From assembly GCF_000265405.1 (NCBI RefSeq), contig NC_018010.1, positions 2,067,501-2,131,500 on the forward strand: a stretch of 64,000 nucleotides of DNA. Reading direction: 5' to 3'. Below, in pieces: positions 37,977 through 61,958 of this stretch. The position numbers and the translations under genes were made by a program. Each line of letters begins with the position of its first letter. Position 1 is the first letter of the stretch. Under the pieces are notes generated by a model, which saw nothing but the letters and a program-made list of their open reading frames with translations, searched no databases and was not told the origin of the DNA. The DNA comes from Belliella baltica DSM 15883 (GTDB taxonomy: Bacteria > Bacteroidota > Bacteroidia > Cytophagales > Cyclobacteriaceae).

Positions 37977-38007
37977 CAAATATACCCTTTATTTAAATAA
38001 AGACAAA
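37977..38007 (-). promoter_or_regulatory. promoter of the rrf2-ric-nos operon
   Basis: On the minus strand TTTG (38004-38007) is followed after exactly 19 bases by TATATTTG (37977-37984), a perfect Bacteroidota promoter. The transcript would start near 37970, about 12 bases before the Rrf2 start codon. Confidence 0.75.
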
Positions 38008-40354: not shown

Positions 40355-40387
40355 TGTATTTTTAGGTTAGAGAGAATTGTATTGAGA

Positions 40388-40520
40388 TAAAATTGAAATA
40401 AGGTGGAAATATGGTGGAAATAAAATAGAAATAGGGTTGGAATAATGTGGAATTATTTCGTCGAACCTGCTTGCTAGTAGGAATGGGCATGTTTCTACTA
40501 TATTTCGCCGAAGGCATATA
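40388..40520. repeat. GGTGGAAATA / TTTCGCCGAAGGCATA repeat region
   Basis: The moaE-moaCB spacer has several short copies of (G)GTGGAAATA and ends with a TTTCGCCGAAGGCATA element at about 40503-40518. Related pieces recur at 41075-41399 and 46960-47256. Confidence 0.65.
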
Positions 40521-40525
40521 TCTTT

Positions 40526-40972
40526 TTAAGTATTCACCTTCCACTCAGATTTTTCATTATCCAGGATTTCCTTTCCCCAGATGGGCAATTCTTTTTTGAT
40601 GCGCTCGACGAGTTCTTCACAGGCATCGATAGCAGCTTTGCGATGTTTGGAGGAAGTAAAGACAAAGAGGCAGATTTCTCCTGTTTTGACCTCGCCCAAG
40701 CTATGGTAAATATGCATGCAGGTCAATGGATATTTGGCAAAGATGGCTTCACGGATTTCGAAGGCTTGCTGCAAAGCCATGTCTTCATAGGCTGTATATT
40801 CGATAGCCACTACCGAGCCCTCTTCTTTTTTATCAGCTCTAACCTGTCCGAGAAAGATGCTATGTCCGCCAATATCTGTTTTTGTGCTGTGATTGGCGAT
40901 GGATTTCGCGATTTTATCAGGAGAGATTGCTCCTTCTACAAATATGTTTTTTGGTGTTCTTTTCTTTTCCAT
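40526..40972 (-). CDS. moaE: molybdopterin synthase catalytic subunit
   Basis: A 148-aa MoaE. Together with MoaD it adds two sulfurs to precursor Z to form molybdopterin. Family stretches are GGHSIFLGQVRADK, VVAIEYTAYEDMA, YHSLGEVKTGEICLFVF and KKELPIWGKEI, including the active-site Lys residues. It lies between moaCB and moeB, separated from each by repeat-filled spacers. Confidence 0.94.
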   Translation of the reverse strand: MEKKRTPKNIFVEGAISPDKIAKSIANHSTKTDIGGHSIFLGQVRADKKEEGSVVAIEYTAYEDMALQQAFEIREAIFAKYPLTCMHIYHSLGEVKTGEICLFVFTSSKHRKAAIDACEELVERIKKELPIWGKEILDNEKSEWKVNT

Positions 40973-41074
40973 GGTTTTTTTATTTAGGCCACAAAGGCAC
41001 TAAGTTAATAATGGTTTTGGCCACAAAGGTACTAAGGCACTAAGGTAATATTGGTTTGGGCTTTTTGGAGTTTC

Positions 41075-41399
41075 TTTTTGATAGAAATACGGTGGAAATA
41101 TTATAGAAATATTGTTGAAATAGGGTTTGTCTTCGTGTTTCATTCAGGTTTTTCGAAGCATATTTCCATTCTATTTCTACTATATCCCGAATCACTTCGC
41201 TCTCGGGATCTCCATTTCACTCCGATTTCGCCGAAGGCATATTTCAATATCCACCAATATCCAATATCCACTAATATCCTTTCTTCTATATCCCGAATCA
41301 ATTATCTCCTCTGGTTTGCGCAAGAGCTCTGGGCTGAAAATATTTCGCCGAAGGCATATTTCTACTGTATTTCGCGAAGCATATTTCAATATCTAATAT
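41075..41399. repeat. mosaic intergenic repeat cluster
   Basis: The 427-base moeB-moaE spacer (40973-41399) has no gene. It holds GGTGGAAATA-type units at about 41088-41125, the hairpin element CCCGAATCACTTCGCTCTCGGG minus its ends (about 41186-41207), TTTCGCCGAAGGCATATTTC at about 41226-41245 and again at 41343-41362, shorter variants near 41151 and 41371, and tandem AATATCCA-type units. A closely matching hairpin block recurs at about 47028-47086. A further pair of GCCACAAAGGCACTAAG-like units lies at 40988-41043. Confidence 0.75.
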
Positions 41400-42485
41400 C
41401 TACTTTAAATCCCCAAAATATCTAATAATTCCCCCCTCAACAGATTGAATATTTTTATCCGGAAACTGACTTTTGACCATGTCGACGGCTTTCAGGCTTC
41501 TGCTACCTGATTGACAGAAAAGGAGGATGTTCTGAAAGGATGCTAGCTGACTTCTGGAATTGGGTAAGTCAGCTAAAGGAATCTGGAGGTGGTCAATATC
41601 GTCCAGTTCCGGTTGTTCCCCATGTTCCCGAACATCCACCAACACGGACTGATTGGCGTTTTTCAATAAGCTCAAAGCAGCTTCCCAATCCGTTTGTGCA
41701 CTCAAGCCACAGAAGTCCTGATAGTCCATTTCTTGGAGTTCGGAATGGTTTTTTGGCCTGCTTTGATTGCTGCCTGGATTTTTGGCAAGTTGAACCTGAT
41801 AGGAATTGTGGTTTTGCAGGTCGTAGAAGAGCATTTTGTCTTCAAGAGAGTCCCCATATCCAGTCAGGTATTTGATACATTCTGCAGCCATCCACGTTCC
41901 GATGATCCCTGGTAGCACACCCAATACACCTGTTTCATTGCAGTTGGGTACTTCACGAGCTGATGGTGGAGTGGGGTAGAGATCCCTGTAATTAATAGAA
42001 TGGCGTCCTTTGGCATTGAAAATAGCTACTTGTCCCTCGTGCTGATAGATGGCTCCGAAAACCAAAGGTTTGCCAGCGATCAGGCAAGCATCATTGACCA
42101 AATACCGCGTGGGGAAATTGTCCGAACCATCTAAGATCAGGTCGTAGTTTTTGATGATGCCCAGAATGTTTTCTTTCGTCAGGAAATAGGGGAAAGCTTC
42201 TACCTCTATGTCATCGTACTTTTTCTGAATGATTTCGGCAGCAGATTCAGCTTTGTTTTTTCCGAGATCTTCTTTTCCGAACAGGACCTGTCTGTTAAGG
42301 TTGGAAAGTGAAACCAAATCTCCATCTATGATGCCGATTTTTCCGATTCCTGCTGCGCTGAGGTAAAGCAAGGCCGGGCAACCCAAACCGCCGGCACCTA
42401 TGATCAGAACTGAAGTTTTTCTGAGTTTTTGTTGTGATGCGGGACCAAAGCCAGGTAGTATATATTGTCTTTCAAATCTATCCAT
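41400..42485 (-). CDS. moeB: MoeB/ThiF-family adenylyltransferase with rhodanese domain
   Basis: A 361-aa fusion. The N-terminal E1-like domain (about 1-245; GAGGLGCPALLYLSAAGIG at about 31-49, DNFPTRYLVND) adenylylates the C-terminal glycine of MoaD. The C-terminal rhodanese domain (about 265-361) has the persulfide loop CQSGSRS and can supply sulfur for the MoaD thiocarboxylate. Oddly, the two CxxC pairs that bind zinc in E. coli MoeB are missing: INYRDLYP and NPGSNQS stand where they would be. It ends 3 bases... from moaD, whose stop lies just upstream, so the two are coupled. Confidence 0.9.
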   Translation of the reverse strand: MDRFERQYILPGFGPASQQKLRKTSVLIIGAGGLGCPALLYLSAAGIGKIGIIDGDLVSLSNLNRQVLFGKEDLGKNKAESAAEIIQKKYDDIEVEAFPYFLTKENILGIIKNYDLILDGSDNFPTRYLVNDACLIAGKPLVFGAIYQHEGQVAIFNAKGRHSINYRDLYPTPPSAREVPNCNETGVLGVLPGIIGTWMAAECIKYLTGYGDSLEDKMLFYDLQNHNSYQVQLAKNPGSNQSRPKNHSELQEMDYQDFCGLSAQTDWEAALSLLKNANQSVLVDVREHGEQPELDDIDHLQIPLADLPNSRSQLASFQNILLFCQSGSRSLKAVDMVKSQFPDKNIQSVEGGIIRYFGDLK

Positions 42486-42755: not shown

Positions 42756-44258
42756 TCACTCCACCCGATCAATTTTATGGGCGATTTCTGGAGATTCAGT
42801 TTTGACTATGTTTCTTGTGACTCTTAGCATCCAAAACAAACACACTACAGAAAGGATAAACATCAGGATCCAACTGCTGGTCCAAAGGCCTGTCCAGTCC
42901 AACAAATAGCCAAATAGGATGGGACAAACAAAACCTCCCAAACCTCCGATTACCCCAACCATACCACCAACGGTTCCCACTTCATTGGGGAAATAGTCTG
43001 GAATAAACCTGTAAACTCCCGCTTTGCCTATTCCCCAAACTATCCCAATCAACAATACCAATACGGCATACACCCACATGTTTGCTTCAAAAGAAATCTG
43101 TGTAACCCCTTTTGCTAACAATTCTTTTTTTCCAACTTCCTGTCCAGGCCTTACTACCGGTTCTTGCCAGCTATATTTATGTGGTAAAAAAGAAGCAGTA
43201 GCGGATGGATCATTCATTCGCTCCATTGCGTCATCTTTTGAAGCCAGCGCATAATTTCTATTCCCCACTTCAATTGCTTGGTCTGTAACTCCACTTACTT
43301 CACCAGCCTGTGTAGCCATGATGCCCTTTCCAGGTGTAATGATGTCCATTTTGGGAACCATCAAAAGAGCCGCTAAGATAATCGACCATCTAAAAGTCCC
43401 CAACATGACTCTTCTTGCACCTAACTTGTCACTCATCCACCCACCAAGTACACGAATCACTCCGGAAGGAAAGGAGAATAAGGAAGCAAATAGTCCGGCT
43501 ACAACCAAGCTTGCTCCATATACATTGACAAAGTATGGTACGAGCCATTGGGCAAAAGCTACGAAGCAACCGAATACCAAGAAGTAATAAAAGCCAAATC
43601 GCCACACGCGGATGCTTTGAAGCGGTTTTAATATCACTGCCATGGTTCGTGCAGGGGCGTTTGATTTTTTATTGACTGAAAAGAACATAAAAACCAATGC
43701 CATCACAACCAAAACCCCGGCATAGTACTGAGGCAAAAGCCTCCAGTTTTCAGGATTTAATCCATTAGCTGTGAAATTATTCAAAAGGGTAGGAGCCAAT
43801 AGGGTGGTCAATGCCGCTCCTGCATTCCCTGCACCGAAAATCCCCAGTGCTCGACCTTGCCAGCTTTTTGGGAACCAGACAGAAGTATAGCCTATACCAA
43901 CTGCAAATCCAGCACCGGCAAATCCAAAGAAAAAACTGAGGACTGCGTAAAACATGAAGCTGTCCGCAAAAGAAATCAGGTACATGGGGATGGCGCAGAA
44001 TAGTAACAAAGCAGCAAAAATCCATTTCCCTCCATATTTATCCGTAAGAATTCCCAAGGGAAGTCTGAAAATTGCTCCTGTCAAAATCGGGATTCCCAAA
44101 AGCCAGCCAATCTCTACAGGACCCCATTCAAAAATTCCATTGTCGGTCAGGTAAGTCACCATGACCCCGTTGAAAGTCCAAACAGCAAAGCAGATAGTGA
44201 ATGCCAAGGTATTCAAAAAAAGCATTCTGTAGGAAAGAGAGTTGATTTGTTCCTGCAT
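42756..44258 (-). CDS. narK: NarK-family nitrate/nitrite transporter
   Basis: A 500-aa major facilitator protein with about 12 membrane segments. The nitrate signature is present near the C-terminus as GTVGGMVGVIGGLGGF, and the N-terminal half has the MFS loop motif RLPLGILTDKYGGK. It moves nitrate or nitrite across the inner membrane. Odd point: a hydrophilic insertion of about 80 residues (about 305-388) sits between two membrane segments in the second half. It lies inside the Moco gene block, between mobA and moaD. A second transporter is at 53099-54439. Confidence 0.9.
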   Translation of the reverse strand: MQEQINSLSYRMLFLNTLAFTICFAVWTFNGVMVTYLTDNGIFEWGPVEIGWLLGIPILTGAIFRLPLGILTDKYGGKWIFAALLLFCAIPMYLISFADSFMFYAVLSFFFGFAGAGFAVGIGYTSVWFPKSWQGRALGIFGAGNAGAALTTLLAPTLLNNFTANGLNPENWRLLPQYYAGVLVVMALVFMFFSVNKKSNAPARTMAVILKPLQSIRVWRFGFYYFLVFGCFVAFAQWLVPYFVNVYGASLVVAGLFASLFSFPSGVIRVLGGWMSDKLGARRVMLGTFRWSIILAALLMVPKMDIITPGKGIMATQAGEVSGVTDQAIEVGNRNYALASKDDAMERMNDPSATASFLPHKYSWQEPVVRPGQEVGKKELLAKGVTQISFEANMWVYAVLVLLIGIVWGIGKAGVYRFIPDYFPNEVGTVGGMVGVIGGLGGFVCPILFGYLLDWTGLWTSSWILMFILSVVCLFWMLRVTRNIVKTESPEIAHKIDRVE

Positions 44259-44299
44259 AGTTTTGAGGTTTTAGTTTTTTCCTTTACCGTTTAAGATAA

Positions 44300-44887
44300 T
44301 CAATGATTTTTCTTCAGCCAAGTTGCAGCTTGGGCTATGTCTGTTGGCGTGTTGATATTTATAAATTCTATAGGGCTTAATTTATGGCGTTCATCCAAAG
44401 CGAAAAATTGATGGGGCTTTTCTTGGATGAAACTTTGAAGTTTTAATTTATCGTTGACCACATGCTCTTCAACGGCGGAAATTAAGCTTTCTGGGTATAC
44501 TCCTGGAAAGGGGAGTGTTCTGTCTTTTAACCTTGAAACTGTGATGTAGTTTTCTCTGGATTGAGTGATCAAAGCATTCAAAGTTTCTGTCTTTAAAAAA
44601 GGCATATCACAGCTTAAAAGGCAAACGTTATTTCCCTTAGCATTAGTCAAAGCGGTTAATAACCCTCCAAGTGGGCCTTTCTCTGGGATAGTGTCTTCAA
44701 TAACTTTCAGGTCAAACTGCCGATATGCAGGGTCATGTGCGATTATTCGAAGAGGGTAGGGAAGAGTACCTATTGATTCGATCAAATACTGAATCATAGG
44801 CTTACCAGTGATTTTGACCAGACCTTTGTCACTGCCCATTCTACTGCTTTTTCCGCCTGCCAAAATGTAAATTTCTAATTCTTTCAT
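44300..44887 (-). CDS. mobA: molybdenum cofactor guanylyltransferase
   Basis: A 195-aa MobA that adds GMP to Mo-molybdopterin to form the guanine dinucleotide cofactor needed by nitrate reductase of the DMSO-reductase family. It begins LAGGKSSRMGSDKGLV (about residues 8-23), the nucleotide-binding signature, and has SCDMPFLK near 97. I start at the ATG at 44887, which overlaps the stop of the TSUP gene by 4 bases (ATGA). An upstream start would lie deep in that gene. Confidence 0.92.
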   Translation of the reverse strand: MKELEIYILAGGKSSRMGSDKGLVKITGKPMIQYLIESIGTLPYPLRIIAHDPAYRQFDLKVIEDTIPEKGPLGGLLTALTNAKGNNVCLLSCDMPFLKTETLNALITQSRENYITVSRLKDRTLPFPGVYPESLISAVEEHVVNDKLKLQSFIQEKPHQFFALDERHKLSPIEFININTPTDIAQAATWLKKNH

Positions 44888-45618
44888 GCCCAAATTAATT
44901 TTATAGCAGCAAAGAAAAGGACGGTTGTAAGGATGTATTTTACAACATTTACATTGAAGCGCTTTGCTCCCAAATAAGCGCCAATCGCTCCTCCAGCTAC
45001 AGTCAAGGGCATCAAATACCAAAGCTTAGCATCGATGGAAATATTTACTGCATCAGCTCCTATGTATCCAGCTACTGAGTTGAAGAAGATGAATAAGGCA
45101 CTCAATGCAGCAGTTTCTTTCATTGAGGTCCAACCCAGCATTAGCAAGATGGGAGATAGGATGATACCACCTCCTATGCCGATCAAGCCAGAAAAGAAAC
45201 CTATCGAAATGCCTAATATTGGTGCCATCCACCATACTCTTTGAATTACCCGCTCTTTGGCTATTGGGAATACATTTAAAAAACGTAGGATTGGGAAGAA
45301 CAAAAGCATCCCTAATATTTGCTTGTATAGAACAGTATCGACTAAAATCGTTCCCCCTAGGTATGCAGCAGGGATAGAAAAGATAATTAGAGAAAGGAAT
45401 AGGTTAGTAGGAAATGCAACTGTTTTCCGATATGCTAAAAATGCAAGCAGGGATACCACCATATTCAGCATCAAAGCTGTAGGTCGAATCTGCTCTGGAG
45501 CAAAATTAAAAAGTGCCAAAAACATCAGGTAGCTACTGGCGCCACCATGCCCAACTGCCGCATAGAGGAATGCAGCCAAAGGCATCAAGACGAATAGCAT
45601 AATCCAAGCCTCGTCCAT
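44884..45618 (-). CDS. TauE/SafE (TSUP) family membrane transporter
   Basis: A 244-aa protein with about eight membrane segments and the family motifs GHGGASSYL near residue 22 and GLIGIGGGIILSPILL near 144. TSUP proteins move sulfite, sulfoacetate or other small anions. The place between moeA and mobA suggests an anion linked to the cofactor, such as molybdate or a sulfur oxyanion, but this is inference. The start at 45618 (MDEAWIML) is 4 bases after the moeA stop. Its own stop overlaps mobA. Confidence 0.85.
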   Translation of the reverse strand: MDEAWIMLFVLMPLAAFLYAAVGHGGASSYLMFLALFNFAPEQIRPTALMLNMVVSLLAFLAYRKTVAFPTNLFLSLIIFSIPAAYLGGTILVDTVLYKQILGMLLFFPILRFLNVFPIAKERVIQRVWWMAPILGISIGFFSGLIGIGGGIILSPILLMLGWTSMKETAALSALFIFFNSVAGYIGADAVNISIDAKLWYLMPLTVAGGAIGAYLGAKRFNVNVVKYILTTVLFFAAIKLIWA

Positions 45619-45622
45619 GTTA

Positions 45623-46798
45623 TTACCAATGATACACATTTATCAAAGAGCCTGCCGCCATCTCTTCAGTTTCTTCTGCAACTTCAGCAAAACAGTCAGC
45701 TGCTCCAAAGGAGATCAGATTGAATGATTCCTGCCCAGTCAAGATGTGCACCTGGTTATTTTCAATCTTGGCTTTTAGGAAGAAAGTGAGTCCCGCTTTT
45801 CTTTTTAGAGGTTCGGCCAAAGGAAGCTTTGCTGTAGGTTGCCAGGAATTCTTATGCCCCATGTATTGTAAAAGTGATGGCTTGACATATTGATTGAAAC
45901 AAGTAATGACAGAAGCAGGGTTACCTGGTAAGGCGAAGATTAATTTTTCACCCAAAATCCCAACGTAAAGGGGCTTCCCAGGTCTTTGTTTTATTTTGTA
46001 AAATAATTCCTCAACTCCTGCTTTTGTTAATCCTGTTTTTACATAGTCATAATCTCCGACAGAAATACCGCCAGAAAGAATCAGGATATCAGCGTTTGCA
46101 AGGGAGTTTTCTATGGCTTTTTGCAATTCATGTGGTTCATCAATGGCTTGCGTACTCTGCACCTCCTCTACACCTAAGGTATTTAAGTAACTTTGCAGAA
46201 CAGGTCCATTTGAATTGTAAATTTGGCCAAAAGATAGGGGCTTTCCCAGCTCTTGCAATTCGTTTCCAGTGATAATTACCGCAACTTTTGGAGGGCTGTA
46301 CACAGGAATTTCAGCAATCCCCACAGATGCTAAAAGACCTATGCCGCCGGGGTTGATTAGCGCACCTTTTTTTAAAATAATACCTCCAGCTTCCGTCTGA
46401 GCTCCTTTTAGACGAACGTTGCTGCCTCTTGTGAAGCTGCTTTTGTCAAATGTAATTTGATTTCCATCTCTTTCAACCCATTCTTGTGGGATTACAGTAT
46501 CCGCTCCTTTAGGTATCGGGGCTCCGGTAAAAATTCTACTGGCTTGGCCTTTTTGCAATACATGAAATTCACCATCTCCAGCAGCTACTTCTGATACCAC
46601 TTGCCATGGCTCTTGCTGATCATCCCAGCTAATAGCGTAGCCATCCATCGCTGAATTGTCAAAAGAAGGAACTGCAATCGGGGAATGAATGTCTTTGGTG
46701 CAGATCAAGCCTATGGCTTTTTCGAGCGGTAAAATGTTAGATTTCGCTGAAGGGGTGTGCTTTTGAAGTATTGATTTAGCCTGATTGACTGAGATCAT
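45623..46798 (-). CDS. moeA: molybdopterin molybdenumtransferase
   Basis: A 391-aa MoeA that inserts molybdate into adenylylated molybdopterin. Typical stretches are VPSFDNSAMDGYAI (about 43-56), RIFTGAPIPKGAD, ITGNELQELG, NSNGPVLQSYL, LSGGISVGDYDYVK and ALPGNPASVI. It heads the run moeA-TSUP-mobA-narK-moaD-moeB. I see no clear promoter in the 458-base spacer ahead of it, and its first 130 bases contain TTTGACAAAGTA-like dyads of unknown meaning. Confidence 0.94.
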   Translation of the reverse strand: MISVNQAKSILQKHTPSAKSNILPLEKAIGLICTKDIHSPIAVPSFDNSAMDGYAISWDDQQEPWQVVSEVAAGDGEFHVLQKGQASRIFTGAPIPKGADTVIPQEWVERDGNQITFDKSSFTRGSNVRLKGAQTEAGGIILKKGALINPGGIGLLASVGIAEIPVYSPPKVAVIITGNELQELGKPLSFGQIYNSNGPVLQSYLNTLGVEEVQSTQAIDEPHELQKAIENSLANADILILSGGISVGDYDYVKTGLTKAGVEELFYKIKQRPGKPLYVGILGEKLIFALPGNPASVITCFNQYVKPSLLQYMGHKNSWQPTAKLPLAEPLKRKAGLTFFLKAKIENNQVHILTGQESFNLISFGAADCFAEVAEETEEMAAGSLINVYHW

Positions 46799-46959
46799 AT
46801 TTGTATTTTACTAAAATGGGCTTCTTCTATTTTTTCTTTTTGGAACTTCTTTGACTGATTAGTCTTACTTTGTCAAAGTAGCAGATTAGATCAACCTGCC
46901 AGGTTTATAAGCTAAAGCAGGGTTAGAGGTTAGAACTACATCTTTTCAATCATATATCC

Positions 46960-47256
46960 ATCATTTTCCAAAACCAACTTTACCCAAAATATCCAATAGT
47001 ATTTCTATTTCTAAATATTTCAATTGTATTTCTACCATATCCCGAATCACTTCGCTCTCGGGATCTCCGTTTCACTCCGATTTCGCTAAGCATATTTCAA
47101 TATCCCAATATCCAATATCTCTTAATATCCATTAATGTCATTTATTTCGAAGAATATCTATTTCTAAATATTTCAATTGTATTTCTACCATATTTCAAAA
47201 ACAAACTTCCCCTCAAAATATCCATCAATATCCACTAATATCAATTAATATCCTTT
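46960..47256. repeat. mosaic intergenic repeat cluster, second copy
   Basis: The moaA-moeA spacer (46799-47256, no gene) holds a block at about 47028-47086 nearly identical to 41172-41230, including the same CCCGAATCACTTCGCTCTCG hairpin. It also holds an AAATATTTCAATTGTATTTC unit that occurs twice (near 47013 and 47166), and AATATCCA-type units through to 47250. AACCTGCCAGGTTT near 46894 is a separate small palindrome. Confidence 0.75.
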
Positions 47257-48237
47257 TTATCCCCCAATCTTAATCATACTACGATTTTCGATTTTGTCAG
47301 CTTCAGCCTTTTGGTAATCAGGGGAAAATTGACCGCCTAATGCAGCATGTTTGTTGTATAGAGAGAGTCGAATCAGTGGTTCAATTTCCTTACCCGCTCT
47401 CAGGGTACCGAGAAGATCCATTTCTTCTTTTCCGAAAAGGCAGTTTTTCATTTTGCCATCAGCAGTGATTCGCATACGATTACAACTACCACAAAAATGC
47501 TCGCTCATAGTCGTAATAAAAGCAAAAGTGCCTTCATGACCAATTGCTTTGTATTTTTTGGCCGTGGCATGGGGTTCGTCCTTGAGTTTGACTACATCAA
47601 ACTCTTCTTTGACCATATCTAACATTTTCTGAGCAGTCAGCACCTTCGAACTATCCCAAAGATTGCCAGCAAAGGGCATAAACTCTATGAACCTTACATG
47701 AAGGGGAAGTTCTTTGGTGATTTTTACAAAATCCAAAAGTTCATTTTCAATAATACCATTAAGTGCAACTACATTGATTTTTATACGAAAATCATGTTTT
47801 AGAAGTAATTCTATGTTGTCCCAGACTTGTTGGAATTTATCCCTTTTGGTTAGCTTGAAGAATGTTTCTTGCTTGAGAGAATCCAAGCTTACATTCAATG
47901 ACCGGATACCGGCTTTTTTGAAAAGACCTAAATATTGATGAACCAAGACCCCATTGGTTGTAAGGGTGAGTTCTACAGGAAGTTTTGCCAATCGTTCTAC
48001 AATTTCGGCAAACTCCTTGCGAACCATTGGTTCTCCTCCTGTCAGTCTGATTTTTTTCACACCTAGTGAAACGAATATTTTGGCAATGGTCTCGATTTCA
48101 TCCGGCTGCATCAGATGTGCATTGGGCATGCACTGGATATTTTCCTCAGGCATACAATAAGTACAACGGAAGTTGCAGCTATCTGTCAGAGAGATTCTTA
48201 GGTAATCATGTACACGTTGAAACCGATCTTGGAGCAT
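47257..48237 (-). CDS. moaA: GTP 3',8-cyclase MoaA
   Basis: A 326-aa radical SAM enzyme that starts Moco synthesis from GTP. The SAM cluster motif CNFRCTYC is at about residues 21-28. The C-terminal cluster is CGSCNRMRITADGKMKNC, and the protein ends in GG, which is needed for activity. It starts 7 bases after the 84-aa membrane gene, so it belongs to the nitrate reductase operon rather than to the Moco block. Confidence 0.96.
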   Translation of the reverse strand: MLQDRFQRVHDYLRISLTDSCNFRCTYCMPEENIQCMPNAHLMQPDEIETIAKIFVSLGVKKIRLTGGEPMVRKEFAEIVERLAKLPVELTLTTNGVLVHQYLGLFKKAGIRSLNVSLDSLKQETFFKLTKRDKFQQVWDNIELLLKHDFRIKINVVALNGIIENELLDFVKITKELPLHVRFIEFMPFAGNLWDSSKVLTAQKMLDMVKEEFDVVKLKDEPHATAKKYKAIGHEGTFAFITTMSEHFCGSCNRMRITADGKMKNCLFGKEEMDLLGTLRAGKEIEPLIRLSLYNKHAALGGQFSPDYQKAEADKIENRSMIKIGG

Positions 48238-48244
48238 GTTGCTT

Positions 48245-48499
48245 TTATTCTTTGATTTTGGGTTTTCTTGGCTCAGGTAAATAGCGTAAAAGCCAAGCTG
48301 CTGCTATAAACAAAACTGATGACCCGATAAATGTTCCCAATGCGATATTGAAATTATCGGTCAGGGCATTGTTTAATGCCGAATATAAGAACCAAATCTG
48401 AATACTGACCAACAGAATCAGTAATAGCGTGATGCCTGTCATCAGGGTATTGGTTTTATTAGGGTGTGCTTCTTTTTGGGAATATCTGAAATTACTCAT
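48245..48499 (-). CDS. small membrane protein of the nitrate reductase operon
   Basis: An 84-aa protein with two membrane segments (about residues 19-41 and 50-70) and a basic C-terminus. I do not recognise the family. It lies 5 bases after the Rieske gene and 7 bases before moaA. It may be an accessory membrane subunit of the reductase complex; this rests on position only. Confidence 0.75.
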   Translation of the reverse strand: MSNFRYSQKEAHPNKTNTLMTGITLLLILLVSIQIWFLYSALNNALTDNFNIALGTFIGSSVLFIAAAWLLRYLPEPRKPKIKE

Positions 48500-48504
48500 A
48501 TCGT

Positions 48505-49017
48505 TTAGGCTTTATGGCTTTTAGCTTTGACAAACACTTTCCCATTTTCAATCACTACTTCCAATTGAGGCAAAGGTCTAGGAGGTGGACCCTGGGTCAC
48601 AACACCAGTTTTGGGATCAAAATAGCCCTTGTGACATGGACACTCAATCAAATTTAAATCTTTTCGGTAAATGACTGCACAGGCCAAGTGCGTACATTTC
48701 TGTTCAAAGGCCCTCCATTCTCCATCTTCCAAATGGATCAGAATATAAGGAATGACCTTATCGCCCTCAATCTCAAATTGGAGCATTTCGCCCATAGGAA
48801 CTTGACCTTCTTCACAAATGAAATGCTGGCCTTCCAGTTCTTTTTCAGGAAAGGCGATGCTTTTGAGCACAATAGCTCCATTTCCAAGGGCAAGTGCGCC
48901 GGAGAATAGGGTGAGGAACTTGGCAAACTCTCTTCTGGAAACGTGGGTAGCTTCCTCCTTGTCTATAGGGAAATCATTTTTCCACTGTGGTGTTTCACCT
49001 GCTTTTTCTTCTTTCAT
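48505..49017 (-). CDS. Rieske [2Fe-2S] protein with Tat-type N-terminus
   Basis: A 170-aa protein. Residues 27-55 form a twin-arginine-type anchor: SRREFAKFL followed by a hydrophobic stretch. The Rieske cluster ligands are CTH near 100 and CPCH near 120, with the intervening LIE. Such an anchor resembles the Rieske subunit of cytochrome bc complexes. Here the gene follows the four-cluster ferredoxin of a nitrate reductase by 12 bases, so the protein may pass electrons between quinol or a periplasmic donor and the complex. No cytochrome b of the bc type is nearby except the NarI-like protein at 51871. Confidence 0.88.
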   Translation of the reverse strand: MKEEKAGETPQWKNDFPIDKEEATHVSRREFAKFLTLFSGALALGNGAIVLKSIAFPEKELEGQHFICEEGQVPMGEMLQFEIEGDKVIPYILIHLEDGEWRAFEQKCTHLACAVIYRKDLNLIECPCHKGYFDPKTGVVTQGPPPRPLPQLEVVIENGKVFVKAKSHKA

Positions 49018-49029
49018 AGTACTGGCTGA

Positions 49030-49602
49030 TTATTGCACTTTGAGGTAATTGCTGCCTTTCGGCATCATAATTTTTACTTTGGTCTTTACTTCCTGCTCCC
49101 CGAAGAAAAAGGTGTCAACAGGAACACTGTCAGGTCTCTTTTTCTCGATTTCTTCTCTGGTTCCATAAAACAGTGCCTGTGAAGGGCAAACTGTAGCGCA
49201 CATCGGTTTTTTACCTGCTGAGGTACGGTCATAACACATGTTACACTTCATCATCAGTTCAGCTTTTTCCTGTTTTTGCGGAACTCCAAAAGGACAGGCC
49301 AACACGCAGTTAGAGCAACCGATACAGCGGGATGTCTCTGCGGTATGAACTACACCAAATTCGTCTTTGGAAATGGCATCTGCTGGACAGACATTGGCAC
49401 AGGCAGGGTCTTCGCAATGCATACAGACTTGAACGGTAGTCTGCGTAGAAACAGCCCTTTCCACATAGTGAATATGGATCATGCTTTCCTGGCCGTTGGT
49501 TTCACATTCAGCGCAGGCCATTTCGCAGGCATGGCAGCCGATACACCGCTGCATGTCAATGAAAAATCCCATTTGCTGGTCATATTTTGTACTACTAGGC
49601 AT
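49030..49602 (-). CDS. four-cluster [4Fe-4S] ferredoxin subunit (NrfC/DmsB-like)
   Basis: A 190-aa protein with 16 cysteines in four groups: [11 protein letters not shown] (from residue 20), [24 protein letters not shown] and CNMC with CATVC. This is the pattern of DmsB, NrfC and PsrB electron-transfer subunits. No signal peptide is present, so it is cytoplasmic. It should connect the molybdenum subunit encoded just upstream (12 bases) with membrane partners. Confidence 0.92.
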
Positions 49603-49614
49603 AATTGATGTGGT

Positions 49615-51846
49615 TTATGGTTTTAGGGTTTCGTGGCTTTGAAATGCCAATGAATCAGTGGCTGGGGCAGCCCATTTTTTGAGCGGCTCCAATTTGCAGG
49701 CACAGACTTTAAATTCCGGAATTTTGGATACAGGATCCAATGTGCCAATGGTCAATTGATTGGCAGATTGGCTGCCTCCCCAGTGGTAGGGAATAAAAAC
49801 TGTGTCGGGCCGGATAGTCTCTACAATTTGGGCAGGGAAAACGGCTTCTCCTCTTCTGGTAGATACCCTGACCAATTCCCGCTCCTTGATGCCAAACTGC
49901 TGGGCCAAGCTTGGATGGATCTCCAAAAGCGGTTCAGGGTATTGGTCTACAAGTTTGCCGATTCTTCTGGTTTGCGTTCCAGACAGATATTGGGACACTA
50001 CCCTTCCTGTGGTGAGGGTCACCGGGAATTCTTTATCGGTCACCTCAGAAGGTTCCCTGTAGGGTACTGCATTGAAGTGAGCTTTTCCATCAGGGGTTTT
50101 GAATTTTTTATCTTCCCAAAGTCTAGGGGTTCCTGGATGGTCTTCGGATGGACATGGCCAGAAAATGCCCATGTTTTCCTCGATTTTTTTGTAGGTAATG
50201 CCGTAATAATCCGCCGTGCCTCCTTTGGAAGCTACCCGGAGCTCGTTGAAGATGTCTTCAGCTTTGCTGTAATTAAACTTGTCACCTGCACCTAATCTTT
50301 GTGCCAGTTCTATCAGGATATCACTATCTTTTCTGGCTTGGCCTGGAGGAGTGATGGCTTGGTTGATTTTTACTACCCTACCTTCGGCTGTGGTTACCGT
50401 GCCGTCTTCTTCTTCGTGTAACGAACCCGCCATGATGACATCCGCATGCCGGGCAGTTTCATTGAGGAAAAAGTCTATGCACATATAATACTCCAGTTTT
50501 TCCAGTGCTTCTCTCACAAAATTGTTATTAGGAAGAGAAACGAGGGGGTTGAAACAGATGGAAATCAATCCTTTGATTTCTCCTCTATGAATGGCCTCTA
50601 TAATTTCGTAGGCAGAGAGACCTTTGCCGGGAATTTCTTTTTCTTCTACGCCCCAGACTTCAGCGATGTATTTTCTGTGCTCGGGATTGGTGATGTCTCT
50701 ATTGCCAGGCAATTGATCACATTTATGTCCATGCTCGCGACCTCCTTGCCCATTCCCTTGACCTGTAATGGTTCCATATCCGCAATATGGCTTTCCAATA
50801 CGGCCGGTAGCCAATACAATATTGATACAGCTGACCACATTATCCACCCCTTTGGTATGGTGCTCAATGCCTCTGGCGTGTAGCAGAAAGGAAGTATCTG
50901 CTTTGCCCCACCATTCGGCGGCCAGTCTGATTTTTTCTTTATCTATGCCTGTAGTCGCTTCTGCCCAGTCCAGATCATATTCTTTAACTGCGTCTATAGC
51001 TTCTTCAAAACCACTTGTATGGTTATCTATAAAGTCGTGATCTAGCCAATCATTGTCTACCAATTGCTTGAGAATGGCTCCAAAAAGTGCCGAGTCTCTG
51101 CCAGGTTTAACGGGCAGATGCAGATCAGCAGTTCTGGCTATAGGCGTAACTCTTGGATCCACCACGATCAATTTAGCTCCATTGTCCCTAGCTTCCCATA
51201 TGTAGTGGGTAAGGGTAGGGAAGCACTCACTGATATTGGTTCCTGCTATGATGATCACTTTGGCATGCTTCAAATCTGCCCAGGAATTGGAAATTCTATC
51301 CAAGCCAAAAGCTTTCTTGTTTCCTGCCCCCGCTGAAACCATACAAAGCCGGCCATTATAGTCAAGGTTTTTGGTTTTGAGTGCCAATCGGGCAAATTTA
51401 CCCACCATGTAGCTCTTTTCGTTGGTCAGAGATACGCCGGATAGCATGGCAAAGGCATCATTACCATAGGTAGATTGAATTCTTTTGATTTCATTGACGG
51501 TACGGCCCATGGCTGATTCCCAGTCAATGGGTTCAAAACCTTTGCCTTCTACGCGTTGAAGAGGGCTTAATATTCTATCCGGATGGTTGTTTTGCAGGTA
51601 GCGTTGTACACCTTTGGGACAGAGCCTTCCTTCGTTGAAAGGAAATTCCATCCAGGGTTCAAAGCCTGCTATCTGATTGTCTTTTACCTTGAGCTGTATA
51701 CCGCACTGCATGCCACAAAAGCAGCAGTGGGTTTTGACCAATCGGTCAGGTTCATTGGATCCTTCGAAACCACCCAATGGGGTGTAGTTCTTTTTGGGAC
51801 CGTATTGTTTTATGATTTTTTCAGCGGAAACTGGTAGTTTGGCCAT
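49615..51846 (-). CDS. molybdopterin nitrate reductase catalytic subunit (NasA/NarB-like)
   Basis: A 743-aa enzyme of the DMSO-reductase family. A [4Fe-4S] motif C-x2-C-x3-C-x27-C lies at residues 41-76 ([15 protein letters not shown]). The probable molybdenum ligand is the Cys in [11 protein letters not shown] near residue 168, as in Nas/Nap enzymes. The C-terminal molydopterin-binding domain begins near [14 protein letters not shown]. There is no Tat signal, so it acts in the cytoplasm. It lacks the C-terminal [2Fe-2S] domain of many NasA proteins. Nitrate as substrate is inferred from the narK genes on both sides and from family resemblance. The composition of the operon is unusual for either Nas or Nar. 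Confidence 0.85.
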
Positions 51847-51870
51847 AATGGGATTATTCAGAATTATTGT

Positions 51871-52926
51871 TTAACCGAAGAATTTTCCAGAAGCTTGTCT
51901 GGCCTCGAAATGTGCTTTTGCCAGGGCAGACCTTTTTCCTTCGGGAGAGAGGTCTAAATGGCTGCTGCCATCAGCAAGTGTAAAGTCAAAGCCAACTTCT
52001 TTGGTAACTCTTTTGAGATCATTGATGTGTGTTTGAGTGGCAAACTCTTCTTTGGTATGTGGGCAGACTGCCATGCCTCGTTTTTTTCCTTCAATTTTAT
52101 ACAAGTTTGCTCCAAGTTGGGCCAGCCTCTGGAAAATGTGAAAGAATTTTCCGAAAGGCATCCAAATCAAAAAGAGAATCACTGTGATGGCATGGGTTAC
52201 GGCCATAAACTGGTGCGTCCTTCCATCCAAAAAGGTGTAATCGTAACCTATACCCAATCCTGTTACCGAAATAGCGATCAACAAGACCAAGGGAAGCCAA
52301 TCGCCTTCCAATGACTGGGTTGCGATTACTCCACCATCTTTCACTCTTCTTTTCATCATGATCACTGCTCCGATGATGACAGGGAAAGAAGTCAGGAATA
52401 AGGCTTTGAAGGCTAATATTGATATTAGTCCTCCCAATTCAAAAGAGCCTACTTTGAATCCGAAAAAATTGGCATTGTAGATTTCATAGCTTCCGGGCTC
52501 CAAGGTGAAATGTATCCATCCAAAAGTCAATGGGACGGTTATGGCAAAAGACAACAGACATCCTGTGGCCAATAAAAAGTGTCCCCACCATCTGGTTCTG
52601 CTTCTGTAGGCTATAAAACGCTGAAAAAGGATGTTTCTAAATAGAAGATACACGGATCTGCTGGCATAAGTGATAAAATCCTTGCTGAATAAAAACTGCA
52701 TACTACGTCTCCAGTAAAGCCGAGTGGGTGGTCTTTGTAACCACACAGAATAACGGTAAGCTATTCCAAAAACGGCAAAGATGGTTCCGAACAGGTAGGC
52801 GATAAGCGCTGCATCAAAATTTTGCAGATTCCTGGAACCAATAAACACCAAAATCACCACTGCCAGAGCGGCAATGGTGGCTTTGATAAAGGCTACCCGG
52901 TTTAGCGTTTGAAATAATTTCAGCAT
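51871..52926 (-). CDS. NarI-like membrane protein, putative heme b quinol oxidase subunit
   Basis: A 351-aa protein with about six membrane segments and a soluble C-terminal region of about 90 residues. Histidines within or near the membrane segments (GHFLLATG, WIHFTL, THQFMAVTHA, FFHIFQ) fit the heme b ligands of NarI, HdrE or DsrM-type quinol dehydrogenases. The soluble tail has no cysteine pair, only CPHTKEEF. It lies between narK and the molybdenum subunit and is the likely quinol-oxidising partner. Heme binding is inferred, not shown. Confidence 0.75.
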   Translation of the reverse strand: MLKLFQTLNRVAFIKATIAALAVVILVFIGSRNLQNFDAALIAYLFGTIFAVFGIAYRYSVWLQRPPTRLYWRRSMQFLFSKDFITYASRSVYLLFRNILFQRFIAYRSRTRWWGHFLLATGCLLSFAITVPLTFGWIHFTLEPGSYEIYNANFFGFKVGSFELGGLISILAFKALFLTSFPVIIGAVIMMKRRVKDGGVIATQSLEGDWLPLVLLIAISVTGLGIGYDYTFLDGRTHQFMAVTHAITVILFLIWMPFGKFFHIFQRLAQLGANLYKIEGKKRGMAVCPHTKEEFATQTHINDLKRVTKEVGFDFTLADGSSHLDLSPEGKRSALAKAHFEARQASGKFFG

Positions 52927-53098
52927 AGTGTGGTTCTATTAATAATGATTTTGTGAGTATTATAGTCTAGTAAAGAAATTTATATTTTGACAAATCTTTT
53001 CGAAAGCCCCGATATCAATCAATTGCTAGAATCCATTACTTTCAAACATTCTGGACATCATTTGGCTTCTTGAATTCACTTTACACCTAAAGCATTTA

Positions 53099-54439
53099 TT
53101 ATGAAGGTCTCTCAGCTCCTTTTCTATCGTAGAAATACCAGTTGATAACTGTCGCGAGGACCAGGAAGATAGCAAGTATCCAGAAGAAGCCTTCTGCATG
53201 GCCAGTGCTCCCGATAAAGGCACCAAGGGCCAAGGAGAATATAAATGGGCCATATGCCGCAATTGCCGCTGTCCAACCAATTACCCCGGCCGCTTGTCTA
53301 GGGTTATGCTTAAATATAATAGGAAATTGTCGAAAAGTCGAGGCATTTCCGATTCCTGTGAAAAAAAACAAGGCCATCATGGTGCCCACAAAGAGTGGAA
53401 ACTGCTCCATTCCCGTTGGATTGACCAATCCAAATGAAAGCAAGACGATCACTCCGCCTAAGAGTCCTACACCTGTTATAGTAGTCAAAACAGCCCCGCC
53501 GGTTTTATCTGCCACAAATCCAAAAAGAATTCTGGATGCAGAGCCCACTAAGGGCCCGTAAAAAGCATATTTCAATGGATCCAAGCTGGGGTCAAAGCTG
53601 CCATAAAGTACCTTCATCAGCAAGGGGAAGGCAGCTGAAAGTCCAGCAAAAGTACCAAAGGTCATAAAGTAGGTGATGGTACAATACCAGGTATGTTTGT
53701 CTCCAAAAATATCCAACTGTTCTTTGAAAGAGGCTTTGATTGGAATACTTTTTAGGTATTTCCAACTAATGATACCCATGATGATCAAAAGAGGAGCATA
53801 CCAAAAAGCACCACTTTGCAGGTAAATCTCTTTTGAAACCACTTCTCCTGTTGCCTTATCTACACTTTGGAAAAGCTGAGGTGCTCCATATAAGGCTACT
53901 CCGATCATGACAGGGGTCATGAACTGGGCTATGCTGACACCAAAATTACCGATGCCTGCCTGAATTCCCAAAGCTGTTCCCTTTAACCTGGCTGGGAAAA
54001 ACATATTGGTCGATGGCATAAAAGAAGAGAAATCTCCTCCTCCAAATCCTGCCGTAAGGGCAAGAACTACAAATACCCAGAAAGGTGTTCCAGGATTCAT
54101 CACTGCCAAACCAATCCCAATCACCGGGACAAGTTTAAGTATTGTAGCTACTGTAATGGTATGTCTGCTGCCATAGATCGGGATCAGGAATGTATGGACA
54201 ATCCTTAAAGTTCCTGCAGCCAGTCCGGGGAGAGCAGCAAGCCAAAACAGTTGGTTATCTGTGAATGAAAAGCCGATACCCGGTAGTCGGGTGACGATAG
54301 CGGACATCATAAACCAGGTACAAAACGACAGGGTCAATGCGATAGTAGTGATCGTGAGGGTACGCCAAGCAATTTTTTTTCCGGTTGATTCCCAAAAATC
54401 GTTGTCTTCAGGATTCCATTCTTTCAGCCAAGTAGCCAT
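53099..54439 (-). CDS. narK: NarK-family nitrate/nitrite transporter
   Basis: A 446-aa MFS transporter with about 12 membrane segments. Nitrate-porter stretches include AGFGGGDFSSFMPSTNMFFP near residue 130, LKGTALGIQAGIGNFG, and GVIGWTAAIAAYGPF near 385. It is the first gene of the operon that includes the reductase, so it should bring in nitrate, perhaps in exchange for nitrite. The intergenic region upstream holds an FNR/DNR-like dyad at a class II activator position. 52927-53098 has no gene. Confidence 0.92.
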   Translation of the reverse strand: MATWLKEWNPEDNDFWESTGKKIAWRTLTITTIALTLSFCTWFMMSAIVTRLPGIGFSFTDNQLFWLAALPGLAAGTLRIVHTFLIPIYGSRHTITVATILKLVPVIGIGLAVMNPGTPFWVFVVLALTAGFGGGDFSSFMPSTNMFFPARLKGTALGIQAGIGNFGVSIAQFMTPVMIGVALYGAPQLFQSVDKATGEVVSKEIYLQSGAFWYAPLLIIMGIISWKYLKSIPIKASFKEQLDIFGDKHTWYCTITYFMTFGTFAGLSAAFPLLMKVLYGSFDPSLDPLKYAFYGPLVGSASRILFGFVADKTGGAVLTTITGVGLLGGVIVLLSFGLVNPTGMEQFPLFVGTMMALFFFTGIGNASTFRQFPIIFKHNPRQAAGVIGWTAAIAAYGPFIFSLALGAFIGSTGHAEGFFWILAIFLVLATVINWYFYDRKGAERPS

Positions 54440-54461
54440 AGTTTTTTGCTTTTATTGGAAG

Positions 54462-54989: not shown

Positions 54990-55002
54990 TGACCGTATTC
55001 TG

Positions 55003-55134
55003 CTGTTAGGGATTTGCAATCCCGAACCTAGATAAAGAGGATTTCAAATCCTCTTTTCCGGTTTAGGGTAAAATGAAATTTAAAATTCACGTTATCTGTA
55101 CCTCGAAATTGCAAATTTCGAGGAGCAAGGATAA
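55003..55134. repeat. four-hairpin intergenic repeat, copy 1
   Basis: About 130 bases with the order: GGGATTTGCAATCCCG, CTAGATAAA, AGGATTTCAAATCCT, CCGGTTTAGGGTA, a decayed third hairpin, and CCTCGAAATTGCAAATTTCG ending in AGG. Copies 2 and 3 share the same order. The third hairpin is damaged in this copy. The remainder of 54990-55368 shows no gene. Confidence 0.85.
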
Positions 55135-56244: not shown

Positions 56245-56288
56245 ATACTGGCTGTTAGGGCTGCCCAGCTGCCAGCTGTTCCCAGCCG

Positions 56289-56416
56289 TTCGGGATTTGC
56301 AATCCCGAACCTAGATAAATAGGATTTGTAATCCTTTTTCCGGTTTAGGGTAGAATGGAATTAGAAATTCCTTTTAACTGTACCTCGAAATTGCAAATTT
56401 CGAGGAGCAAGGATAA
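56289..56416. repeat. four-hairpin intergenic repeat, copy 2
   Basis: All four palindromes are intact: TTCGGGATTTGCAATCCCGAA, cut here to its core GGGATTTGCAATCCC, then AGGATTTGTAATCCT, GGAATTAGAAATTCC and CCTCGAAATTGC with its partner arm. It lies directly after the stop of the 56421 gene. Confidence 0.9.
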
Positions 56417-57375: not shown

Positions 57376-57458
57376 GGCTGCAAAAATAGGCAAATTGCCT
57401 TATGTCATGTTTTAAACCATCTTAGATTTCAAAAAATGACCAAGGACCAACCTAAGCT

Positions 57459-57578
57459 GTTCGGGATTTGCAATCCCAAACCTAGATAAATAGGATTTGT
57501 AATCCTTTTTCCGGTTTAGGGTAAAATGGAATTTAAAATTCCTTTTATCAATCCTCGAAATTGCAAATTTCGAGGTAC
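57459..57578. repeat. four-hairpin intergenic repeat, copy 3
   Basis: It has the same order as copies 1 and 2, with GGGATTTGCAATCCC, AGGATTTGTAATCCT, GGAATTTAAAATTCC and the CCTCGAAATTGC hairpin. It runs up to the stop codon of the SCO gene at 57581, so it may act as its transcript end. Confidence 0.9.
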
Positions 57579-57580
57579 AG

Positions 57581-58171
57581 CTAATTTTTTGCCACAGCCA
57601 CAATCTTGTTTACGATCTCCTCATTGACCAATCCAAGCCCTTCTTTTTGGTACTTCATGACTCCTTGACGGTCAAAAACGGAGATGATGTTGGAATGGGA
57701 AAAATCTATGGGATTGATTTGTTTGTACTTGACGGCCATGATATTGGCAAAATCCCTCACGCCATCTTCGGTGCCTTGTAGGAAAAGCCATTCCGGGCCT
57801 TCCATTTGGTTGTCCTTGGCAAATTGCTTTAGTTTTTCAGGGGTATCATTGATAGGGTCAATACTGACCATCACGTATTGGATATCTTTCATTTTTTTGG
57901 ATGAAACTCTTTCCTCGATCATGCGCATATCTGCTACCAATCTAGGACAGGCTGTTCTACAGGCCGTATAGATCATCACTACGACCAATGGTTTTCCTTT
58001 GAGGTCTTTGAACTCGATGGTCTGGCCATCCTGGGTATTCCATTCAGAAGGAAGCTGATAAATAGAGAGGTCATCCATGGTCTCTTCCATATTTTCAGAT
58101 TGTTCTATTTGGGTGTTTTCCTGACAAGAGAAAAGGAAAAAAGATAGAAGTATAAGGCTGAAGTAACGCAT
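57581..58171 (-). CDS. SCO1/SenC/PrrC-family copper protein
   Basis: A 196-aa lipoprotein (LFSC near residue 16) with the SCO thioredoxin-like fold: CRTACPRL supplies the CxxxC copper site and the His in IDFSHSN the third ligand. In oxidase systems it delivers copper or reduces the site. Here it follows nirV and nirK, so it may load copper into NirK. I use the ATG at 58171, giving MRYFSLILLS; the frame upstream overlaps nirV. It probably overlaps the end of nirV's operon unit with 7 bases between. Confidence 0.9.
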   Translation of the reverse strand: MRYFSLILLSFFLFSCQENTQIEQSENMEETMDDLSIYQLPSEWNTQDGQTIEFKDLKGKPLVVVMIYTACRTACPRLVADMRMIEERVSSKKMKDIQYVMVSIDPINDTPEKLKQFAKDNQMEGPEWLFLQGTEDGVRDFANIMAVKYKQINPIDFSHSNIISVFDRQGVMKYQKEGLGLVNEEIVNKIVAVAKN

Positions 58172-58178
58172 GACAGGT

Positions 58179-58967
58179 TTATTTAAATGTGAGTTGATTT
58201 TGTGGGCCGGCATCTTTGGCACATCTGAACCCCAGAGTTGTGAGGGAGAAGTTGGCCTTCAGGCTGGAGCGCATGGCAAAGCGCATAAATGCTGCGTAAT
58301 TCATCATGTCTTTGGCACCGATAGCACCTGCGGCGCAGAATAATCCTGCATCTGTGTTGCCGTTGTTTCTGGATTCTCCGGTCAGGATGATGGAATTGAA
58401 GTCCTGAGTCCATTCCCAGACCATGCCATGCATGTCTTGGACTCCCCAGTAATTGGCTTCAGAGTTCCCTACGGTTTTCATGTAGGTTTTGGGTTGTTCG
58501 TAGCTTCTGAGTATGGATACATTATAGAGGCTGTCTGAGCGGGCATCTCTTTTGGAAGTTGAGGCCATGGCAGCATATTCCCATTCATCCACTGTAGGAA
58601 GTCTTTTTCCCTGACACTCGCAGTAAGCTTTGGCAGCAAACCAAGATACCATAGTGACAGGCTTGTCCATCAGATTGGCAGGCGCTTTCAGGTCATTTTC
58701 CCAGTTGGACAAATACCTGTTGTCAGCAAATAACTTGGTGACATTGGATTTTTGCCATTTGGAGTGATTTCGGACAAATTCCTGAAAGTCCGCATAGGTG
58801 ACAGGGTGTTTGTCCAAATAGAAGTCCCCCACAGCAGTTTCGGGCTGTTCACCTACTCCGTAGAGGGGAGTATAATTCCCCCCTTCTATCAGAGCCATTT
58901 GATTATTTTGGGCTGAGGCATTGCTGATCAGAAAAAAGCCTGCCATCAGTAAGATTAACTTTCTCAT
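58179..58967 (-). CDS. nirV: NirV-like formylglycine-generating-enzyme-family protein
   Basis: A 262-aa secreted protein (signal peptide residues 1-19, cut after ASAQ) made of one SUMF1/FGE-sulfatase domain: FYLDKHPVTYADFQEF, PVTMVSWFAAKAYC, RLPTVDEWEYAA, VWEWTQDF and LGFRCAKD. NirV proteins accompany copper nitrite reductases in several denitrifiers; their task is not settled. The gene starts in the last bases of nirK (4-base overlap), so the two are coupled. Confidence 0.9.
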   Translation of the reverse strand: MRKLILLMAGFFLISNASAQNNQMALIEGGNYTPLYGVGEQPETAVGDFYLDKHPVTYADFQEFVRNHSKWQKSNVTKLFADNRYLSNWENDLKAPANLMDKPVTMVSWFAAKAYCECQGKRLPTVDEWEYAAMASTSKRDARSDSLYNVSILRSYEQPKTYMKTVGNSEANYWGVQDMHGMVWEWTQDFNSIILTGESRNNGNTDAGLFCAAGAIGAKDMMNYAAFMRFAMRSSLKANFSLTTLGFRCAKDAGPQNQLTFK

Positions 58968-61954: not shown

Positions 61955-61958
61955 AACT

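Follow-up and report, generated by a model that had tools for sequence, protein, structure and literature searches.

Which enzyme takes the first step in a bacterium that carries genes for the later steps of denitrification and neither of the classic nitrate reductases is the question raised by a 64,000-nucleotide stretch of the genome of Belliella baltica DSM 15883 (NCBI RefSeq assembly GCF_000265405.1, contig NC_018010.1, positions 2,067,501 to 2,131,500 of the forward strand; hereafter the window), part of a one-contig genome of 4,196,595 bases that is 99.98% complete. A first-pass annotation, made from the letters of the window alone, had pointed to a nitrate reductase module with an unusual subunit set, and the five open reading frames (ORFs) that it named are indeed present at 48245-52926, all on the minus strand and separated by intergenic gaps of 24, 12, 12 and 5 nt. 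Read in the direction of transcription, they are:

51871-52926, minus strand: subunit C, candidate NarI-fold membrane cytochrome b, 351 amino acids (aa)
49615-51846, minus strand: subunit A, NasC-like catalytic subunit of the molybdenum-bis(pyranopterin guanine dinucleotide) (Mo-bisPGD) type, 743 aa, with the active-site motif RLCM of nitrate-reductase type and without a signal peptide
49030-49602, minus strand: subunit B, DmsB-like ferredoxin with four [4Fe-4S] sites, 190 aa
48505-49017, minus strand: Rieske protein, 170 aa (PF00355)
48245-48499, minus strand: DUF6755 protein, 84 aa, with two transmembrane spans

We consider it likely that the five genes encode a single membrane complex, a respiratory menaquinol:nitrate oxidoreductase with its active site in the cytoplasm.

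The conservation of the block across genomes speaks for a unit of five parts. A genome scan for A gave 238 confirmed loci, and in the best 80 of these, close relatives whose A has a best segment no less than 77% identical, all from Bacteroidota, the order C-A-B-Rieske-DUF6755 is intact and on one strand in 79; the exception is a contig that starts 226 bp before A (L039), so that C cannot show, and in one locus C is in two pieces (L045). The flanks of the block are variable, with 35 arrangements listed. A NarK gene precedes C at a distance of up to 400 nt in 55 of the 79 complete blocks, and MoeA or MoaA lies downstream in 42. Outside the phylum, a search of 72,556 plasmid records turned up C in four, all from Deinococcus, where C is 37-38% and A 60-80% identical to the proteins of the window (A 64.4% in one listed); the same five-gene order recurs on all four, with a gene of the major facilitator superfamily (MFS) or a NarK gene adjoining. 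The search for this order in other genomes, which the first-pass annotation had proposed as a check, thus yielded an order that goes beyond chance, because it persists in 79 of 80 loci despite the variable flanks and in four of four plasmids of Deinococcus. The block also occurs in one further locus (L101). Among 395 evenly drawn genomes of the phylum, C (counted at E values up to 1e-20) is present in eight and DUF6755 in the same eight and no other, one of them (G328) lying outside the class of the window and holding the full block. Protein searches placed relatives of A in Acidimicrobiia and relatives of C in Armatimonadota and others, among the matches listed (the best 120 of 2595, 4314 and 8000 proteins). 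The four Deinococcus plasmids (L106-L109) also carry a second MFS/NarK gene in every case, and a GAF-domain protein and an FmdE-family protein in three cases each.

Subunit A contains the domains PF00384, PF01568 and PF04879, and it is the one PF00384 protein of the whole genome; there is therefore no NarG, NapA or other enzyme of the PF00384 family. The absence of a nar or nap set, originally stated for the window, thus extends to the complete genome, and a genome-wide nap or nar operon, named at the outset as what would overturn the proposal, was not found there; two relatives may have a protein of NarG size (see below). The best named model for A is that of assimilatory NasC (NF047855, 868.9 bits), below its cut-off of 1100. 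NapA models gave 271-278 bits against cut-offs of 904-931, the AioA-type model TIGR02693 156 bits against 359, and NarG was not among the 25 of 27 models listed for A; a Deinococcus A protein scored 69 bits with the NarG model (cut-off 1084). The twin-arginine motif is absent from the first 45 residues of A in 85 of 85 orthologs, and the N-terminus is not strongly hydrophobic, in agreement with the earlier claim of a molybdenum subunit without an export signal. The active site of A should thus be cytoplasmic, given the missing signal peptide in all 85 proteins and the adjoining NarK.

A comparison of 29 sequences refined the placement of A. Methionine follows the molybdenum-ligand cysteine in all 14 rows of the A family, whereas histidine follows the ligand cysteine or selenocysteine in six rows assigned to the formate dehydrogenases, among them the unannotated L112; Cys-Met is the pattern of nitrate reductases (NasA/NapA), and CH or UH that of formate dehydrogenases. 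The TGQ...GRE motif of A is of the nitrate-reductase type, and a stretch of ten residues is identical in 81 of 81 sequences. In the tree of the 29 rows the 14 A sequences cluster together (support 100/100); next to them stands an unannotated Arthrobacter protein, itself best matched by NasC, followed by the formate dehydrogenases; NasA, fused Bacteroidota NasA and NapA make up the opposite side. The tree is midpoint-rooted for drawing only, and the placement of the long rows of Arthrobacter and NapA is uncertain. By these comparisons A sits on a NasC-like branch rather than with NasA and NapA, and the initial label 'NasA/NarB-like' does not hold. A shares with NasC, NasA and NarB enzymes its size, the Fe4S4 domain, the Cys-Met ligand motif and the lack of a signal peptide, but differs in scoring under the NasC cut-off and in its branch, which is separate from NasA/NapA. 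The flavoprotein donor of NasC-type operons was not found among the operon genes scanned, and the partners of A are membrane and iron-sulfur subunits instead. Database names of A relatives, among the matches listed, range from 'assimilatory nitrate reductase' and 'molybdopterin oxidoreductase family protein' to 'nitrite reductase', and a review lists narB, 'ferredoxin nitrate reductase', for Asinibacterium, a member of the Bacteroidota (PMC13211072).

Subunit B scored 113.5 bits with the DmsB-like model TIGR02951, under the cut-off of 214.1, and all of its 17 cysteines are invariant in 85 of 85 sequences, which agrees with the description as a DmsB-like ferredoxin with four clusters. Subunit C has no Pfam match over threshold, PF02665 appearing only below it, and no match of the bc-type cytochrome b; searches of PDB sequences with C alone and as a profile gave no related match. 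The predicted fold of C is NarI-like (VIA-align of the C model), as the first reading had it. Foldseek alone on the same model returned G-protein-coupled receptors in its top rows at E > 0.1 and was not used. Relative to NarI, C is extended by a helix at the N-terminus and a domain at the C-terminus. Among the relatives of C listed, many are named 'MFS transporter' and some 'respiratory nitrate reductase subunit gamma'.

Of the NarI histidines at positions 56, 66, 187 and 205, which we take to be the heme ligands, H187 and H205 correspond to H245 and H263 of C in the alignment. H66 has no equivalent, with no histidine at position 123 or 126 of C in 240 of 240 relatives. Position 174 is histidine in 237 of the 240 relatives listed, and this residue may replace NarI H66, with lysine in its place in B. 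baltica. A C subunit with a single heme, in which H66 was lost and nothing took its place, was considered and is weakened by this conservation, the lysine notwithstanding. Lys174 is shared by B. baltica and four near relatives (L007, L008, L009, L012), and a change of a heme or quinol-site ligand is possible. The five C relatives listed from outside Bacteroidota (P0161, P0165, P0179, P0184, P0216) have a C-terminal domain with two CxxC pairs, and the Bacteroidota proteins have a Cys/His set in its place.

The Rieske protein carries cluster ligands at C108, H110, C126 and H129 and the extra pair of bc-type proteins at C113 and C128; both cluster boxes, the extra pair and the twin-arginine anchor of bc-type Rieske proteins are kept in 81 of 81 Bacteroidota sequences. 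The Tat-type anchor (R28-R29) that was proposed at first is found in all of these and in the four Deinococcus proteins. The motif residues of the N-terminal tail (W12-D15-F16 in B. baltica; W-K-x-D-F) are invariant across the two phyla, the Deinococcus proteins being just 35% identical to that of the window. The nearest solved fold is the Chlorobaculum Rieske (8hn2). The likeness to bc1/b6f Rieske proteins thus covers the anchor, the CTHxxC and CPCH boxes and the extra cysteine pair, and the differences are the conserved tail and the lack of a bc-type cytochrome b in the block. Rieske proteins of bc1 have a serine and a tyrosine near the cluster; the present protein has glycine and phenylalanine at these positions. 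The last gene had been described as an 84-aa two-span protein, and it shows two hydrophobic spans, a match to PF20540 (DUF6755) and seven invariant residues in 85 sequences.

Taken as a set, the subunits resemble NarGHI in the signal-less, cytoplasmic catalytic subunit, the four-cluster ferredoxin, the NarI-like membrane subunit and the NarK alongside. The set differs in that A, of ~740 aa, is NasC-like and not NarG, in that H66, one of the four ligand histidines of NarI, is without an equivalent in C, and in the addition of Rieske and DUF6755. NarJ was not among the operon genes scanned, the whole genome not having been searched for it. NarI-domain proteins of the QmoC/EtfD type have partners that differ from those of the present set. 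Arsenite oxidase AioAB is likewise a molybdenum enzyme with a Rieske subunit, but a two-subunit enzyme without counterparts of B and C, and A is not AioA-type by the score given above. According to PMC2483277, the pNar of haloarchaea (narB, narC, narG and narH of Haloferax mediterranei) is also encoded with a Rieske protein and a cytochrome b, but its NarG is exported by Tat and faces the outside, in contrast to the signal-less A and its NarI-like partner.

A respiratory role is supported by the company that A keeps. In B. baltica it is the sole PF00384 enzyme in a genome with NrfA (encoded outside the window) and with NirK, cNorB and NosZ, which, with further genes, are encoded in the window as follows:

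58964-60442, minus strand: NirK copper nitrite reductase with a C-terminal cytochrome c domain (TIGR02376, 337 bits, cut-off 296.3; PF00034)
61514-63424, plus strand: cytochrome c-dependent nitric oxide reductase (cNor), cytochrome c at 61514-61954 and NorB at 62006-63424 (NorB against the solved cNor 3o0r_B, E 5.7e-112)
29011-34903, minus strand: NosZ (clade II, Sec-type; TIGR04246, 926 bits, cut-off 625), NosL, NosD and ABC transporter parts
36751-37979, minus strand: Rrf2 regulator and RIC/ScdA protein for repair of nitrosative damage

On sequence grounds, the window holds a whole denitrification island, with candidates for each step from nitrate to N2. A Crp/Fnr regulator lies on the NirK/cNor side of the island.

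To place the set beside other nitrogen enzymes, 49 genomes of relatives were drawn for their A from the 80 loci (all from outside Flavobacterium and part of Flavobacterium, with L064 left out); several are drafts, in which an absence is weaker evidence. A PF00384 protein of ~1160-1200 aa, the size of NasA, accompanies A in 37 of the 49, and a NIR_SIR protein of 834-878 aa, the size of NirB, occurs in exactly the same 37; the other 12 have neither, like B. baltica. NirK was found over the cut-off in 30 of the 49 (a match below it in G046 was left out of the count) and full-length NrfA in 16, with one or the other in 37; NrfA had matched in 19 genomes, of which G012 (a fragment with a stop), G019 and G020 (both weak) were not counted. 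In the sample of the phylum, NirK occurs in seven of the eight genomes with C and in 57 of the 387 without (Fisher p 1.5e-5, or 8.3e-5 without B. baltica itself), p values inflated by shared descent, as five of the eight belong to one genus. Twelve of the 49 relatives have neither NirK nor full-length NrfA, and eight of these possess the NirB-size protein, which counts against a uniform role in denitrification; for cytochrome cd1, the same 12 gave weak matches in four genomes, none of them convincing. NrfA was not significantly enriched in the 12 relatives that lack the assimilatory pair. A further protein with PF00384, 1211-1220 aa in length and with a domain span exceeding that of A, is present in two relatives (G011, locus L017; G017, locus L023), and these proteins are perhaps NarG-like.

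The data suggest a model in which NarK would admit nitrate to the cytoplasm, where the bis-PGD molybdenum site of A would convert it to nitrite. Menaquinol, the presumed donor, would be oxidized near the periplasmic face of C, beside the Rieske cluster, and electrons would cross the membrane through the b hemes of the NarI-fold subunit, a proximal heme held by H116 and H263 and a distal one by H245 together with H174 (Lys174 in B. baltica), and reach A by way of the four [4Fe-4S] clusters of B. An uncleaved Tat-type helix would anchor the Rieske protein, placing its cluster in the periplasm next to the quinol site and its conserved N-terminal tail in the cytoplasm, within reach of A and B; this protein would probably take the first electron of menaquinol, and DUF6755 may serve as a small structural membrane subunit. 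Nitrite would leave via NarK toward NirK, NorCB and NosZ or toward NrfA, and a proton loop would operate as in NarGHI. The Rieske domain is thus probably outside and A inside, and since a NarI-fold C would span the membrane between them, no exotic electron path is needed. The unusual features are a Rieske center in a NarI-type quinol module and the altered set of conserved histidines.

In such a module the Rieske cluster might act as a relay, as a gate or as an outward branch. It is conceivable, though rather doubtful, that C and Rieske together make up a hybrid NarI/Rieske quinol oxidase distinct from bc1, in which the Rieske cluster and not the distal NarI heme is the first acceptor, and that bifurcation may link both halves of denitrification, outward to periplasmic cytochromes (NirK, cNor and NosZ) and inward through a b heme and B to cytoplasmic nitrate. 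As an alternative to the linear path, the Rieske protein may be a separate periplasmic outlet, C and Rieske splitting the electrons of menaquinol inward to nitrate and outward to cytochrome c and NirK, cNor and NosZ. The extra cysteine pair of bc-type proteins and the Chlorobaculum fold would suit such an outlet, as would the fusion of the island's NirK to cytochrome c and the presence of only two Rieske matches in the genome, the block protein and a 116-aa frame; for haloarchaea, a Q-cycle serving Nar has been proposed in which a Rieske protein takes part with other small proteins (PMC2483277). We nevertheless judge an outlet unlikely: the Rieske gene is kept in loci of genomes that have neither NirK nor full-length NrfA, the Deinococcus plasmids have no annotated denitrification genes within 10-12 kb of the block (their annotation is incomplete), and the block has no conserved cytochrome as an exit.

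The set may instead be an assimilatory nitrate reductase fed from the quinol pool, the ammonium from NirB or NrfA being used for growth. The best model of A is an assimilatory one and IMG names its relatives accordingly; an unmatched ORF cluster resembling uroporphyrinogen methyltransferase, tentatively read as siroheme synthesis, is present in 30 of the 80 loci, and in one (L103) such an ORF stands between MobA and MoeB. The 12 relatives without NirK and full-length NrfA point the same way. The NasA-size and NirB-size proteins of the other set are, however, separate from A in the 37 relatives that hold them. In Flavobacterium johnsoniae CI04 the two sets adjoin, the present one running in the opposite direction beside a predicted NasA with a C-terminal flavoprotein part and NirB-size and NirD-like proteins; the assimilatory job would therefore have its own genes there. 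(The fused NasA, L102 14970-18509, is a protein of 1180 aa with a cysteine-rich end.) In B. baltica the only NIR_SIR protein is a 704-aa frame, which we read as a putative sulfite reductase because the NirB-size proteins of relatives are larger, and the set lies within a denitrification island. A soluble enzyme, moreover, would need no NarI-fold subunit, Rieske anchor or DUF6755, and an assimilatory function appears quite improbable.

Two further explanations fare worse. That A acts on another substrate than nitrate, for example with formate dehydrogenase-like chemistry, could be argued from its best solved-structure matches and its side of the midpoint-rooted tree, both of which lead to formate dehydrogenases, but is very hard to reconcile with the NasA/NapA-like methionine, the TGQ...GRE motif and the NarK or MFS/NarK genes that adjoin the block in 55 of the 79 complete Bacteroidota blocks and on all four plasmids. 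That Rieske and DUF6755 are merely cotranscribed, as part of another complex or of maturation, would agree with the few invariant DUF6755 residues, but is scarcely credible when the two are unseparated in the 79 complete blocks, in L101 and on four plasmids of another phylum, when no genome of the phylum sample has DUF6755 without C, and when B. baltica has just one other Rieske match. A Rieske gene that belongs to an unrelated complex would, for the first-pass annotation, have refuted the proposal; no Rieske gene split from the set appeared in the complete blocks examined.

The respiratory complex that we favor is embedded in genes for transport and for the molybdenum cofactor:

53099-54439, minus strand: NarK-family nitrate/nitrite transporter, directly upstream of C (TIGR00886, 263.5 bits, cut-off 311.7)
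47257-48237, minus strand: MoaA, molybdenum cofactor synthesis, 7 nt downstream of the block (Pfam)
45623-46798, minus strand: MoeA
44884-45639, minus strand: TauE-like transporter, after MoeA
44300-45022, minus strand: MobA, after the TauE-like transporter
42756-44258, minus strand: second NarK-like MFS transporter, 500 aa (TIGR00886, 172.7 bits, below cut-off)
39440-42485, minus strand: MoeB, MoaE and a MoaC-MoCF fusion (molybdenum cofactor)

Elsewhere in the island, NirK is followed by an FGE-sulfatase-like protein and SCO1, and a 607-aa protein beside NosZ (34921-36744) has a cytochrome c domain at its C-terminus; apart from this domain it matched nothing in Pfam and, at E 1e-20, nothing in NCBIfam. 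Short interspersed repeats of ~70-130 nt lie between island genes (55001-55134, 56284-56416 and 57455-57587; 41160-41231 and 47015-47086). A scan for FNR boxes (TTGAT-N4-ATCAA, up to two mismatches) gave 102 matches against 81 expected, a number reached in none of 100 shuffles; no match lies clearly at the operon, and the scan was not used.

The stretch of the window at 43618-54447, which comprises the NarK, nar and molybdenum cofactor genes, is 99.8% nucleotide-identical to Indibacter alkaliphilus (L012, L091). Identity falls to ~91-98% in the adjoining parts of the island and to just 75% for the PTPS protein in the flank. The island is also present in Arthrospiribacter ruber, at 93-99.9% identity. 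We read the nitrate-reductase block as a case of recent transfer or recombination, because the A. ruber genome differs from that of the window in size and enzyme content. A segment of 116 nt (47041-47156), overlapping one of the repeat copies, is absent from the A. ruber locus (L007).

The single subunits have already been named by annotation pipelines, but no description of the five-part set was found in the open-access literature (preprints not covered). Denitrification surveys search for narG and napA, and those limited to the classic enzymes could miss the present set. In this connection, a 2026 review states that soil metagenomics finds narG and napA not specifically associated with, or even absent from, Bacteroidota (PMC13211072), and according to a 2024 survey of sludge genomes annotated with KEGG lists, 77% of the 'non-denitrifying' genomes with clade II nosZ, i.e. 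those lacking nirK/S and norB/C, were Bacteroidota (PMC11409646). If the present proposal is true, some Bacteroidota counted as being without a respiratory nitrate reductase possess such an enzyme under a different name, and the complex completes denitrification from nitrate to N2 in B. baltica. Should the organism respire nitrate with it, the set would be a quinol:nitrate enzyme combining a Rieske center with a cytoplasmic active site, and a test bed for how a Rieske cluster may serve a NarI-type module.

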